Below, piece after piece: positions 50,403 to 54,411 of a stretch of DNA of 64,000 nt (positions are counted from its first letter, which is position 1; the number at the start of each line of letters is the position of its first letter). A model generated the notes under the pieces. That model was not told the origin of the DNA and did no database searches. It saw nothing but the letters and a program-made list of their open reading frames with translations. The DNA is from Streptomyces sp. DG2A-72. GTDB taxonomy: Bacteria > Actinomycetota > Actinomycetes > Streptomycetales > Streptomycetaceae. The DNA is taken from contig NZ_JASTLC010000001.1 in assembly GCF_030499575.1 (NCBI RefSeq), forward strand, positions 6,224,001-6,288,000, read 5' to 3'. The position numbers and the translations under genes are program-made.

Positions 50403-51437
50403 TTACGCGTTCGCGCCTGCCTTCCGCCGGCGCATCGCGAAGACCGCACCCGCACCGGCGACGATGGCGACGCCGCTGACCAGGCCGATGGCCGGCAGCG
50501 CGGAGTTTGCGCCGGTGTCGGCGAGGTTGCCGGTCGGCAGGTCGGAGATGCTGCCCTGCGGCTTCTTCCCCGGGCCCTTGCTGCCGTTGTCGCCCGGCGT
50601 GGCGGTGCCCGGGTCCGGGTTGGCGGAGCCGGCCTTCAGGACCTCGAAGTCGTACTGGGCCCAGCCCTCGGCGATGCAGTCCTGGCCGTCGACGTTGTCG
50701 AGGTAGACACCGGAGCCGAAGGAGTAGGCGTCACCGGCGGGGGCCTTGGCGTCGATGCTGACGCGCAGGTCGACCGTCTGGCTGGCCTTCGACTTCAGCG
50801 TGTCGATGCCGAAGAAGAGGTCGCCGGCCCACTCGGAGTCCCCGATCCGCTCCCAGGAGCCGGACTCGGGATTCTTGAACTCCAGGTCGACGTACGGGCT
50901 CAGATACTTCGACTCGTCGAGCTCGTAGTTCTCGACCTCGGCGTAGAAGGCGACGTCCTCGACGTCCATGCCGGACTCGTTGGTGACGACCAGCTTGAAG
51001 CCGTGGAAGCCGTCACCCGCGACGATCTTGCCCGGCAGGCCCTTGATGTCCGCGGACACCTTGGCGTCGGAGAACTCCTCGTCGAGTTCCTCGCAGAACG
51101 GGACGTCCGGCGCCTCGCTCGGCTCGGCCGACTCCGAGGGCTCGGGCCGGCCCGACTCGCTCTCGGTGGCGGAGGGCGTGGCGCTCCCGGTCGGCGCGGA
51201 GCTCGTCGGGGCGTCGCTGGCCGACGCGGTGCCCGTCGGCAGCGTGGTGTCGCTCGGTGTCGCCGTGGCCGTGTCACTCGGGGTCCCGGAGGGCGTCTCG
51301 GTGACGGTCTCGGTGACGGTCTCTGTGGGCGTCGGGGAAGCCGACCCCTCCGCGAACGCGGCGGGCGCGGACAGCAGCGCGAACGGCGATATCGCAGCCG
51401 TCGCGGCCGCGACCGCCATGGCACGGCGAAGCTTCAT
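50403..51437 (-). CDS. LAxTG sortase-anchored surface protein
   Basis: 344-aa cell-wall protein. Signal peptide MKLRRAMAVAAATAAISPF (cleavage near AFA), then a Ser/Thr/Pro/Glu stalk of about 90 residues, a folded domain (SDAKVSADIKGLPGKIV ... WAGDLFFGIDTL ... GSGVYLDNVDGQDCIAEGW) with one Cys pair, a Gly/Lys/Pro linker, and a C-terminal sorting signal LADTG plus helix and RRRK tail. The LAxTG form fits class E sortases of Streptomyces, as used by chaplins. No sortase gene is adjacent. ATG 51437 follows GAGG. Confidence 0.9.
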   Translation of the reverse strand: MKLRRAMAVAAATAAISPFALLSAPAAFAEGSASPTPTETVTETVTETPSGTPSDTATATPSDTTLPTGTASASDAPTSSAPTGSATPSATESESGRPEPSESAEPSEAPDVPFCEELDEEFSDAKVSADIKGLPGKIVAGDGFHGFKLVVTNESGMDVEDVAFYAEVENYELDESKYLSPYVDLEFKNPESGSWERIGDSEWAGDLFFGIDTLKSKASQTVDLRVSIDAKAPAGDAYSFGSGVYLDNVDGQDCIAEGWAQYDFEVLKAGSANPDPGTATPGDNGSKGPGKKPQGSISDLPTGNLADTGANSALPAIGLVSGVAIVAGAGAVFAMRRRKAGANA

Positions 51438-52212
51438 GCAGACCTCGAATAGTCCAGGTGCGCTGTGGGGTGGCAACACGCGTTGAGCGGAGGGCCTCGC
51501 GCTGTACGACACGCGTGTGGCCCTTGGTACGCCTGGTTTGATCCGCGAACCCTGTGGAAGGTTGCGCTCCACTTCACAGAATTCTTATGTGGCCTGGGTC
51601 ACGGTCTGGGGGGCACGGTCCGAGTCATGCAGAAGGGCCCCGCGGGCGTGAGCCGCGGGGCCCTTCTTTGGTCAGCACCGACGTCAGGGCAGCGCCGGTG
51701 CCTGGGGAGCGGCGCCGGGGGGTTGCGCCGCTTGCCTGGTGTGCCCTGGATGACGACCCGGCGCGCAAGGGGCGCACGAATGGTCTCGACCTTTGGCAGT
51801 GAGCCAGTACAAAGAAATGCAGTTGTCTACGGCGGGACTTGGGGCTTGCTACGCATCGTGCTGGATGGGCGGGACCTCCGCAACCTTTTGACCCATCCTT
51901 GTACGTTTCCTTGGCCCTGTCCGGGGGGAACTTGGGTGTTTGTTTTCCCGCCGGCCGGCCCCGGGCGTCCCCGGAGCCGGCCGTTCTCTTGGGCGACCGG
52001 GCTGCTGTCCCCTGCCGTCCGGTCACCTGCCTGGAGCGAGGTCCCACGGCGCACGGCACGATCCGTACGCCTCATCGCTCCAGTGAGCCACGCGTGGTTC
52101 TTCGGGCCCGCCCCTGGCTGGCACGGACATCGGGACCAACGAACCCTTTTGCGCGCCGGTCACGCGCCGTACGGGTGAGAGGAATGCGTACGTCTGTGCC
52201 GGGAACGCGGTT
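51438..52212. other. 775-bp region without a recognisable gene
   Basis: No frame on either strand has both a start context and plausible composition. It contains an isolated terminator (51,631-51,667), an A+T-rich stretch (about 51,820-51,960), a 7-bp hairpin GGATGGG/CCCATCC (51863-51869 with 51892-51898), and a reverse-strand 15-codon frame (51896 to 51849). The layout suggests one or two non-coding RNAs or a long 5' leader for the surface-protein gene. Confidence 0.45.
51631..51667 (+). terminator. Strong terminator with no upstream gene
   Basis: AGAAGGGCCCCGCGG (51631-51645) with CCGCGGGGCCCTTCT (51653-51667), a perfect 15-bp stem followed by TTGG. The T-rich side is on the + strand, but no + strand gene lies within 1.3 kb upstream. 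It may end a small RNA starting near 51,450-51,600. Confidence 0.75.
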
Positions 52213-52500
52213 TCAGATCTTGCCGCGGCACAGCTCCAGAAGGGTCATCGCCAGCGAGGTGCCCGGCTTGCCCAGCGCCTCCCTGTAGTGGGCGAGGATC
52301 TCCATCTCGCGGGAGAGGTTCACGCGCCGGCCGCCGGAGGCGATCCGGGCCTCCTGGACGACGGCGGAGACCGCCATCCGTTCCTGGATCAGGCCGATGA
52401 TCCGGTCGTCGAGTGTGTCGATGCGCTCACGGGCGCCGGTGATCGTCTCGGCGGCCTCGCGGGTGTGCGCGCCGGTCTTCTCCACTGCGGTGGCGGTCAT
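52213..52500 (-). CDS. Chorismate mutase (AroQ class)
   Basis: 95-aa all-helical chorismate mutase converting chorismate to prephenate, the first committed step to Phe and Tyr. The helix with ARERIDTLDDRIIGLIQERM and the following basic helix carry the Arg/Lys pattern of AroQ active sites, with NLSREMEILAHYREALG toward the C terminus. ATG 52500 starts the protein. Upstream on the same strand lie a Phe/Tyr-containing leader peptide and a terminator hairpin, so expression is probably controlled by transcription attenuation. Divergent from guaA. Confidence 0.92.
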   Translation of the reverse strand: MTATAVEKTGAHTREAAETITGARERIDTLDDRIIGLIQERMAVSAVVQEARIASGGRRVNLSREMEILAHYREALGKPGTSLAMTLLELCRGKI

Positions 52501-52584
52501 CTCGGGGCTCCTCTGTCAGAAGGGTTCGGAAGGGTCGGGCGGGTTCGGACGGGGTGCCCCGGATCGACCGGACCCGGAAAACGT

Positions 52585-52619
52585 CAGGCGCCCCGGGCCT
52601 TGTCGGCCCGGGGCGCCTG
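52585..52619 (-). terminator. Attenuator terminator of the chorismate mutase gene
   Basis: On the reverse strand, CAGGCGCCCCGGGCC and GGCCCGGGGCGCCTG form a perfect 15-bp stem with a 5-base loop, followed by ACGTTTTCC. It lies 21 bases after the leader-peptide stop and about 85 bases before the chorismate mutase start, in the orientation of that gene, so it would stop transcription before the gene. Confidence 0.82.
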
Positions 52620-52640
52620 GGGAAGTCGCTTGTCAGTTGC

Positions 52641-52712
52641 TCAAGCAGCACGACCATGGCAGCCGGTGGGCCGGTTGCCATAGGTAAAGAGGAAGGTCGG
52701 GTGCGTGAGCAT
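52641..52712 (-). CDS. Leader peptide with Phe/Tyr codons upstream of chorismate mutase
   Basis: 23-codon frame, ATG at 52712, stop at 52641-52643, beginning MLTHPTFLFTYGNRP. Codons 7-11 read Phe-Leu-Phe-Thr-Tyr, the end products of the pathway. A hairpin inside the frame (GGCA...TGCC outer and CCGG...CCGG inner, 52658-52679) lies right after the Tyr codon, as in ribosome-stalling attenuators. CGGCCC within it is complementary to GGGCCG in the 5' arm of the downstream terminator, giving a possible antiterminator. CATACT ends five bases before the ATG, suggesting a leaderless or very short 5' end. The opening resembles the trp leader peptide of Streptomyces in layout. Confidence 0.7.
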   Translation of the reverse strand: MLTHPTFLFTYGNRPTGCHGRAA

Positions 52713-52782
52713 GGGGTCAGTATGCCACGGCCCCGGGGTCCAAGGAGTCCAGCAGCTGGGACCGCTCTCACGCCCACCTCGG

Positions 52783-52830: not shown

Positions 52831-54411
52831 GTGTCATCAGCGACCCCTGCTGCCGCCGCCCCCGACACCGTCCTGGTCGTCGACTTCGGCGCGCAGTATG
52901 CCCAGCTCATCGCCCGTCGCGTCCGCGAGGCCCGGGTCTACAGCGAGATCGTGCCGAGCACCATGCCGGTGGCGGAGATGCTCGCCAGGAATCCGGCGGC
53001 GATCATCCTCTCCGGCGGCCCCTCGTCGGTGTACGCGGAGGGCGCCCCGCGCCTCGACCGCGAGCTCTTCGAGTCCGGCGTCCCCGTCTTCGGCATGTGC
53101 TACGGCTTCCAGCTGATGGCGACGTCGCTCGGCGGCACGGTCGACAACACGGGGGCGCGCGAGTACGGCCGTACGGACCTGCATGTCAGCAAGTCCGGCT
53201 CCACCCTCTTCGAGGGCACGCCCGCCGAGCAGTCCGTCTGGATGTCGCACGGCGACGCCTGCTCCGCCGCCCCCGAGGGCTTCAGCGTGACGGCCTCCAC
53301 GGACGTCGTCCCGGTCGCCGCCTTCGAGAACGACGAGAAGAAGCTGTACGGCGTCCAGTACCACCCGGAGGTCATGCACTCCACGCACGGCCAGCAGGTG
53401 CTGGAGCACTTCCTGTACCGGGGCGCCGGGCTGACCCCGGACTGGACCACCGGCAATGTGATCGAGGAGCAGGTCGCCGCGATCCGTGAGCAGGTCGGCG
53501 ACAAGCGCGCCATCTGCGGGCTGTCCGGCGGCGTGGACTCCGCCGTCGCCGCCGCCCTCGTCCAGAAGGCCATCGGCTCCCAGCTGACCTGCGTGTACGT
53601 CGACCACGGCCTGATGCGCAAGGGCGAGACCGAGCAGGTCGAGAAGGACTTCGTGGCCGCGACCGGCGTACAGCTGAAGGTCGTGGACGCGCAGGAGCGG
53701 TTCCTGAAGGCGCTCGCCGGGGTGAGCAACCCGGAGGAGAAGCGGAAGATCATCGGCCGTGAGTTCATCCGGGTCTTCGAGCAGGCGCAGGCCGAGATCA
53801 TCGCGGACGAGGGCCCGGCGGTGGAGTTCCTCGTGCAGGGCACCCTGTACCCGGACGTGGTCGAGTCCGGTGGCGGCACCGGAACCGCCAACATCAAGTC
53901 CCACCACAACGTGGGCGGGCTGCCGGAAGACCTTGAGTTCCAGCTGATCGAGCCGCTGCGCAAGCTGTTCAAGGACGAGGTCCGGATGGTCGGCCAGGAG
54001 CTGGGCCTGCCGGACGAGATCGTCCAGCGCCAGCCGTTCCCGGGTCCTGGGCTGGGCATCCGTATCGTCGGCGATGTGACCAAGGACCGGCTCGACCTGC
54101 TGCGCGAGGCCGACGCCATCGCCCGTGAGGAGCTGACCGCGGCCGGCCTCGACCGTGACATCTGGCAGTGCCCGGTCGTCCTGCTCGCGGACGTCCGCAG
54201 CGTCGGCGTCCAGGGCGACGGCCGCACGTACGGCCACCCGATCGTCCTGCGCCCGGTCTCCAGCGAGGACGCGATGACGGCCGACTGGTCGCGACTGCCG
54301 TACGACGTGCTCGCGAAGATCTCGACGCGGATCACGAACGAGGTCGCGGACGTCAACCGGGTCGTGCTCGATGTGACGAGCAAGCCGCCGGGGACGATCG
54401 AGTGGGAGTGA
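52831..54411 (+). CDS. guaA: GMP synthase (glutamine-hydrolysing)
   Basis: 526-aa enzyme aminating XMP to GMP. N-terminal class I glutaminase with FGMCYGFQL (nucleophile Cys) and YHPEV (His/Glu of the triad), then the ATP pyrophosphatase domain with [10 protein letters not shown] and the C-terminal dimerisation domain ending [12 protein letters not shown] 52831 follows GGAAGG. It completes the guanine pathway with guaB and guaB3 at 27-29.7 kb. Confidence 0.98.

Follow-up and report, generated by a model that had tools for sequence, protein, structure and literature searches.

A putative Phe/Tyr leader-peptide attenuator in front of the chorismate mutase gene of Streptomyces and its relatives

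In Escherichia coli, pheA encodes a chorismate mutase/prephenate dehydratase and its leader, pheL, carries a Phe-rich run. In the accessible parts of a 2025 review, pheL-pheA is described by three elements: a leader peptide, a dependence on the availability of Phe-charged tRNA and a downstream chorismate mutase activity (PMC11802643). The locus presented here has the first and the last of them and is predicted to have the second. The two systems are likened by their architecture. Here, however, the downstream gene is a separate, monofunctional AroQ-type chorismate mutase (CM), the mRNA is probably leaderless, the leader core mixes Phe with Tyr, and the stop codon lies in or near the predicted antiterminator helix.

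The primary paper on aroR of Corynebacterium glutamicum is reportedly that of Neshat (2014). As far as the accessible text of three sources goes, aroR-aroF shares with our locus an actinobacterial aromatic-pathway leader; that of aroR has a Phe-Tyr-Phe stretch and responds to Phe limitation (PMC11802643, PMC4046766, PMC7356990). This likeness is drawn from description, and aroR controls a DAHP synthase, not a CM.

Closer in lineage are the leaders leuL1, leuL2, trpL1, trpL2, alaL, ilvL, metL and thrL of Streptomyces lividans. According to the accessible text they are short, contain cognate codons, are mostly leaderless, as is probably the case here, and are followed by hairpins and partly by a terminator; a single cognate codon was accepted for trpL2 (MMTRTCTQLWRAA). 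In contrast to our locus, none of these eight is given there for Phe or Tyr and none stands at a CM (PMC8079986). The same class of element was reported for Trp, Cys and branched-chain genes in the Actinobacteria survey of Seliverstov et al. (2005), whose accessible part records none for Phe or Tyr operons (PMC1262725). As far as their accessible portions extend, PMC1173090 treats attenuators of tyrA operons and mentions none for actinomycetes, the Streptomyces content of PMC4833913 concerns neither Phe nor CM, and the terms sought are absent from PMC2965389. No leader in front of a CM in Actinobacteria was found in the portions of the open-access literature covered, and an earlier report may exist in subscription papers.

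The locus lies in a stretch of 64,000 nucleotides from Streptomyces sp. DG2A-72, which is called the window below. The gene 3' of the leader belongs to the pathway of the leader's cognate amino acids: the CM step commits chorismate to Phe and Tyr, which are precursors of many Streptomyces natural products. From the end of the terminator stem to the CM start codon there are 84 nt (Table 1). Elsewhere in the window, the reverse-strand ORF 50403-51572 (end LADTGANSALPAIGLVSG...RRRK) encodes what we take to be a sortase-anchored (LAxTG) surface protein.

Table 1. Elements of the leader unit with their positions in the window, and the DAHP-synthase leaders used for comparison
Feature	Position or loci	Strand	Basis or remark
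Chorismate mutase (CM), AroQ type, CM_2, 95 aa, presumed regulated gene	52213..52500	-	NCBIfam PRK07857 and TIGR01808 above cut-off
Short T run, TTTT after ACG	52578..52581	-	read from sequence
Intrinsic terminator (3:4) with a perfect 15-bp stem and GACAA loop	52585..52619	-	arms 52619-52605 and 52599-52585
Strand 2 of predicted antiterminator: leader-hairpin loop, 3' arm and apical helix reaching into leader stop codon	52627..52670	-	folding only
Leader peptide ORF, 23 codons, MLTHPTFLFTYGNRPTGCHGRAA and stop	52641..52712	-	ATG at 52712, TGA at 52643-52641; recurs in relatives
In-frame leader hairpin (1:2), ATGGCA-a-CCGG-ccca-CCGG-c-TGCCAT	52656..52681	-	sequence, folding, alignment
Phe7-Leu8-Phe9-Thr10-Tyr11 (TTC CTC TTT ACC TAT), predicted stall site	52680..52694	-	codon conservation in 164 loci
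-10-like hexamer CATACT, 6 nt 5' of leader ATG, predicted leaderless start	52719..52724	-	pattern in 164/164 loci
GMP synthase guaA, divergent neighbour, outside unit	52831..54411	+	on the other side of the leader
DAHP-synthase leaders found with RNA model R1	L284-L294, L296, L297, L299-L301		aromatic leader and terminator, other actinobacterial families
Further DAHP-synthase aromatic leaders	L304, L307, L313, L315, L317, L318, L320, L322		with terminator and -10-like hexamer, other actinobacterial families

The first-pass annotation of this DNA had described a 23-codon frame on the reverse strand with Phe-Leu-Phe-Thr-Tyr at codons 7-11, and this description is correct. A pattern for the whole unit matched 164 of the 166 loci searched, which run from L001 to L140 and from L181 to L206 (a few genomes are present twice, and L140 is from another genus of the family). 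The other two, L066 and L103, lack upstream sequence. All 164 pattern-selected loci have TTT at codon 9 and TAT at codon 11, while in the long ORFs of the window Phe is written TTT in 8 of 339 cases and Tyr is written TAT in 49 of 338. Among 61 diverse leaders, the last Phe ahead of Tyr is TTT in 57 and TTC in 4, and the Tyr position reads TAT in 56, TAC in 4 and CAG in 1. The TTT at 52688-52686 is a separate observation: its invariance, in spite of its rarity in the window, is explained by no pairing. The TAT is partly bound up in the leader hairpin and the TTT is not; slow decoding or the avoidance of pairing is perhaps behind the fixed TTT.

A -10-like hexamer precedes the leader start in 164/164 loci (CATACT in 152), with a gap of 6-7 nt in 163 and of 4 nt in one. 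Such a hexamer is met at approximately 3.8% of random window positions, and the count selects the in-frame start that has a hexamer upstream, which favours a match. When the pattern is widened slightly, 58 of the 60 loci in the diverse set carry one. A sigma-70 scan requiring a -35 element found no promoter at the leader. Because the hexamer ends 6-7 nt upstream, transcription is predicted to start at the leader ATG itself. The predicted start therefore lies upstream of the terminator, a position on which the first-pass annotation had made its reading depend.

The frame and its aromatic codons are retained far beyond the window, and here too the earlier expectation of conservation in relatives is borne out. 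In Streptomyces they are present in 79 of 80 loci, the exception being L066 with too little upstream sequence; a DNA anchor recovers the unit in 78 of the 80, and L077 was recognized by its peptide and by reading. As a query, the DNA matched 95 of 150 genomes of the family, in 14 of 17 genera, some of the matches (e.g., all of genus g14) being bare terminators. Of the loci matched in these genomes, 40 were read; all 40 have the leader, and 39 show TT[TC]A[CG]CTA[TC]GG before CM; L146 has TTC ACC CAG, i.e., FTQG instead of FTYG, and no Tyr. Misses of the DNA search were checked in 10 genomes with no match or with a terminator match only. Five of them (genera g3, g4, g5 twice and g10) have a CM match, and the leader is present in 5/5 (MSSFDVTRSFSYGTG, MFSTAQRFFFYGTG, MSSFGVTRSFSYGTG, MFQMAYFFSYGTG and MFSTAYFFSYGAG). 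The other five, three of g14 and two of g7 (G113, G125, G151, G106 and G153), are otherwise near-complete and show no match to this CM. The leader thus precedes CM in 16 of the 17 sampled genera of the family, and in the 17th, g14, there was no CM match in 3 genomes.

In f3, another family of the order (perhaps Catenulisporaceae), an aromatic leader such as MLANRRFFYGYGPGSLAIVGC stands before CM in 12/12 loci. At two of them (L208 and L214) the leader stays with CM although the neighbour is not guaA. A third family has the leader MRQAAFRFSYGFRNRSGSPVAVWP before CM (L207). In still other families, 20 CM loci were drawn from 40 genomes with a CM match, and 12 of these have an aromatic leader (L227-L232, L234-L236, L238, L242 and L243), with cores such as RFFYGYRPPV, RFYGHRIPV, SYFYYGTGS and FFFYGSG. 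Four of the twelve are weak, with just two aromatic residues together (L234, L238, L242 and L243). No such leader was seen at the remaining eight distant CM loci (L233, L237, L240, L241, L244-L246 and L239, where the region is incomplete). The CM leaders were sought first by clusters of Phe and Tyr, and a second round with Trp included brought no further ones.

Three of these distant loci have features of their own. L236, from family f6 (perhaps Mycobacteriaceae), has the leader QRFFYGYRSAVPVV from position 155 of the fetched region and an in-frame hairpin before CM, without a clear intrinsic terminator; its output may work differently. At L240 CM is preceded by a possible leaderless frame, MVRAPARHLYRMSPEYRDRGLCT, which contains two Tyr, is accompanied by a -10-like hexamer and lacks the usual core. 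L246 has an RFYGGRV-like stretch and a hairpin before CM, without a clear start codon.

For the comparisons below, a diverse set of 60 hand-chosen leaders was used, from which most Streptomyces loci were left out. Also outside it are L157, L159, L167, L168, L171 and L180, all six with the same core, as well as L209, L212, L213, L216, L217, L219, L234-L236, L238, L242 and L243. Alignment A1 contains 58 of the 60 and the window (without L227 and L232), and alignment A2 contains 38 sequences (without other hairpin registers, L141 and L179).

Behind the Phe/Tyr core the frame is less constant, and the codons flanking the core vary. In 6 of the 164 loci (L037, L090, L107, L130, L138 and L139; FTYGTGPVRLPWS...) the hairpin differs by one base, so that the codons past the core are read in another frame, and the C-terminal part of the peptide is therefore dispensable. 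These data bear on a different explanation, in which the F-x-F-T-Y-G peptide itself stalls the ribosome, perhaps together with a small molecule, while the RNA switch remains unchanged. Such a nascent-peptide arrest would suit the conserved peptide core, the Gly that follows Tyr in nearly all leaders, and the small number of aromatic codons. We nevertheless consider it quite unlikely: residues ahead of the core vary freely, and one CM leader (MSTQRFYGHRIPVPARV) has just 5 of them, a small number for reaching far into the exit tunnel. Moreover, the hairpin encodes the Gly together with the C-terminal residues, and its letters are kept in the six frame-shifted loci, and Trp is added mostly in leaders of an enzyme that also feeds Trp (see below).

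The hairpin that had been placed inside the leader frame is indeed there (52681-52656) and recurs across the family; it starts within the Tyr codon. The terminator was described as a perfect 15-bp stem with a T-run, 21 bases past the stop. Stem and distance hold, whereas the T-run amounts to just 4 T, 3 nt off the stem. A simple promoter/terminator scan called no terminator here; it requires 5 T within a stretch of 8 bases that begins 0-2 bases past the stem. The 138-nt leader folds with z = -8.35, and 0/200 shuffles are as stable. Since, in addition, the frame, the Phe/Tyr codons, the hairpin and the terminator recur across the family, the unit is more than a chance arrangement. Within the window, Rfam 15 gave 0 matches above the gathering score and five sub-threshold matches near the leader.

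Across the 38 aligned sequences, 97.8% of the cells of leader hairpin and terminator are paired, which was reached by 0/500 shuffles, and slid versions of the pairing attain at most 50.1%. Changes on both sides occur in 6 pairs and 16 cells, five of the pairs in the terminator and one in the leader hairpin. Taken alone, the hairpin is paired in 97.1% of cells (A2), with 7 of 10 pairs invariant, and the terminator in 98.4%. Outside the family the hairpin is kept with different letters, as in L208 (ATGGCTA/TAGCCAT) and L228 (GGGCACCG/CGGTGCC), and in L021-type leaders one base has moved between stem side and loop so that stem and frame are both kept.

The two terminator arms are not equally constrained. 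Over the 164 loci, non-consensus letters make up 0.3% of the 5' arm and 8.1% of the 3' arm, so that the 5' arm is about 25 times less variable; the pattern was more tolerant of mismatches in the 3' arm (4) than in the leader and the 5' arm (2), a setting that might promote this asymmetry, yet no locus was lost to it. Such an excess constraint is expected if strand 3 pairs with both strand 2 and strand 4. It also bears on the explanation that the unit produces a constitutive short transcript, for a small RNA or a small protein, which ends at a terminator of its own, and that CM is transcribed from a separate downstream promoter. A complete promoter-ORF-terminator unit is present, as this would demand, but a plain terminator leaves the higher constraint of the 5' arm unexplained. 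Furthermore, no second -10-like element common to the loci was noticed by eye between terminator and CM, and wherever loci were read, the unit stands ahead of CM and shares its orientation. We rate the short transcript as very unlikely.

For the antiterminator, it had been proposed that CGGCCC of the leader hairpin pairs with GGGCCG of the terminator arm. The complementarity exists, but folding prefers a longer composite structure over this 6-bp helix. The simple 2:3 helix can form in 91.7% of cells, and slid versions of it reach no more than 67.2%. However, 458/500 shuffles reach its paired percentage, and a longest-helix swap test for the 2:3 pairing was not significant (1898/10000). A swap test on duplex energy was significant (0/10000), with bases under the stalled ribosome and one misread terminator (L227) included. 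In L141 the helix reads AACCCGG/CCGGGTT; this locus was outside the 2:3 shuffle count, where it would have favoured the helix. Of the two alternative stems, the covariation of which had been suggested as a check, the terminator has pairs that covary and the simple 2:3 helix has no both-side-changed pair. The simple 2:3 helix was therefore dropped as the whole antiterminator, and because it fails the shuffle and longest-helix swap tests, the case for an antiterminator rests on the composite fold and the arm asymmetry.

The composite fold was obtained by constrained folding of 61 sequences, which are related, so that the counts are not independent. The 3' edge of the ribosome was set 12 nt past the first base of the Tyr codon, the transcript was folded up to the terminator loop, and capture was defined as a value >0.5. 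A ribosome placed at Tyr is predicted to let the leader capture the 5' arm of the terminator in 61/61 sequences (mean 0.76). When it is moved on to the stop codon, predicted capture falls to 1/61 (mean 0.16), and without a ribosome it is 31/61. The captured fold is a long rod in which the hairpin loop and 3' arm pair with the terminator 5' arm, and in 50/61 it includes at least one paired base of the stop codon.

Shuffled leaders have a mean capture of 0.59. The real capture lies above the mean of its own shuffles in 61/61 and the real energy is better in 54/61; for single sequences the excess is modest (a median of 17% of shuffles are as good). The window's own sequence gives 0.66 against 0.63 in shuffles, a difference close to nil, and 60% of the shuffles have an energy as low. 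When the spacer between stop codon and terminator was shuffled, most shuffles had a worse energy for 56/61 sequences (<5% in 12/61; mean z -1.12), with z -0.01 for the window's own sequence. The antiterminator pairing predicted by these models stands unproven, and covariation does not prove it.

On the architecture, the conservation and the competing folds in silico, we give a probability of about 0.85 to a ribosome-mediated transcription attenuator that couples CM expression to the supply of Phe and Tyr. Translation, stalling, amino-acid response and read-through would then proceed as follows. Judging from the -10 position, transcription would start at the leader ATG, and a ribosome would translate the 23-codon leader behind the RNA polymerase. 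When Phe- and Tyr-tRNA are plentiful, the ribosome would reach the stop codon, in or beside the apical helix of the antiterminator. With this helix blocked, the 15-bp terminator would fold and transcription would end before CM. When Phe- or Tyr-tRNA is scarce, the ribosome would stall at codons 7-11 and mask the hairpin's 5' arm. Loop and 3' arm of the hairpin, now free, could then capture the terminator 5' arm, and CM would be transcribed. Among the features that count against an attenuator are the small number of aromatic codons, only two or three, and the short T run. The unit is probably an old, functional Phe/Tyr attenuator that lowers CM when these amino acids suffice. Conservation, promoter position and codon content, all read from DNA, support the first-pass annotation in its overall reading of a Phe/Tyr leader-peptide attenuator of chorismate mutase.

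Within this attenuator, a sub-case not exclusive of it is a switch that senses a single amino acid, either Phe alone as in C. glutamicum aroR or Tyr alone, with the other codon being incidental. In the accessible text of the 2025 review, the response of aroR is to Phe limitation, and the supply of Tyr is without effect (PMC11802643). Some CM leaders point in the same direction, as L160 and L161 have a single Phe before Tyr and L146 does without Tyr. On the other hand, both residues are kept in nearly all leaders (Phe in 61/61 and Tyr in 60/61 of the diverse set), and we regard the single-amino-acid switch as possible but at clearly less than even odds.

The signal can also be approached through the leaders of another gene. 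The leader hairpin occurs in two registers, so the RNA model R1 retains no structure but the terminator, and many of its weak matches are bare terminators. In the source genome, R1 finds no second full-scoring copy; the other matches have E 0.002 or worse, except where the complementary strand of this locus is matched. A search of 296 genomes of the class gave full-length matches in family f19, which is absent from the 56 genomes with a CM match. Of 20 chosen matches, 16 lie before a DAHP synthase (14 in f19, 2 in f30) and one, L295, before CM. Three weak matches, L298, L302 and L303, were read and rejected as unrelated bare terminators. The identity of the DAHP synthase was established by profile on the first 140 residues of L284 and L297, and for the others by the shared start MVIVM/MVVVM.... 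The source genome has no match to that DAHP synthase. Twenty further upstream regions of DAHP synthase, one per genome, gave 8 with an aromatic leader and a -10-like hexamer, 10 without, and 2 that were too short.

DAHP synthase feeds Trp, Phe and Tyr, whereas CM feeds Phe and Tyr. The DAHP-synthase leaders contain Trp besides Phe and Tyr, as in MQRNFWRFYGYRP, MHASWWFTYGDAP and MRRSWFFGYYRPG. With Trp outside the core not counted, it occurs in the aromatic core of 22/24 DAHP-synthase leaders (the 16 found with R1 and the 8 further ones) and of 5/59 CM leaders. The latter comprise the window, 38 family leaders without the 9 Streptomyces loci of the diverse set, six of the twelve of f3, L207, 12 class leaders and L295. 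By family majority, the core has Trp in 8/9 families for DAHP synthase and in 0/12 for CM (Fisher p approximately 4e-5). Trp anywhere in the peptide is found in 20 of the 38 family CM leaders, 14 times as GTGW, four codons behind Tyr and in the hairpin. Because so many family CM leaders carry Trp behind the core, the contrast is weakened and rests on position. As the Trp content matches what each enzyme feeds, it counts as good comparative evidence for the codons being the sensor. Phe and Tyr as the signal at CM fit the codon content of the leader and the contrast with the DAHP-synthase leaders.

More tentatively, and at slightly below even odds, which the Trp behind the core of family CM leaders has lowered a little, these leaders may represent one ancient leaderless family of aromatic attenuators running through the Actinomycetes and common to CM and DAHP synthase. 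The core codons would be tuned to the branch point (Phe and Tyr versus Trp, Phe and Tyr), several tRNAs would be sensed in one short stretch of codons, and the stop codon would gate the antiterminator.

The finding would be a known kind of mechanism at a new gene and in a new lineage, with a wider aromatic leader family behind it. If true, it would add a Phe/Tyr member to the amino-acid attenuators of Streptomyces, where the accessible part of the 2005 survey records none (PMC1262725). An attenuator at the chorismate commitment step would be a ready target for strain engineering. The leaders of CM and DAHP synthase would together amount to a natural codon-swap experiment, in which the logic of sensing several amino acids is directly testable.
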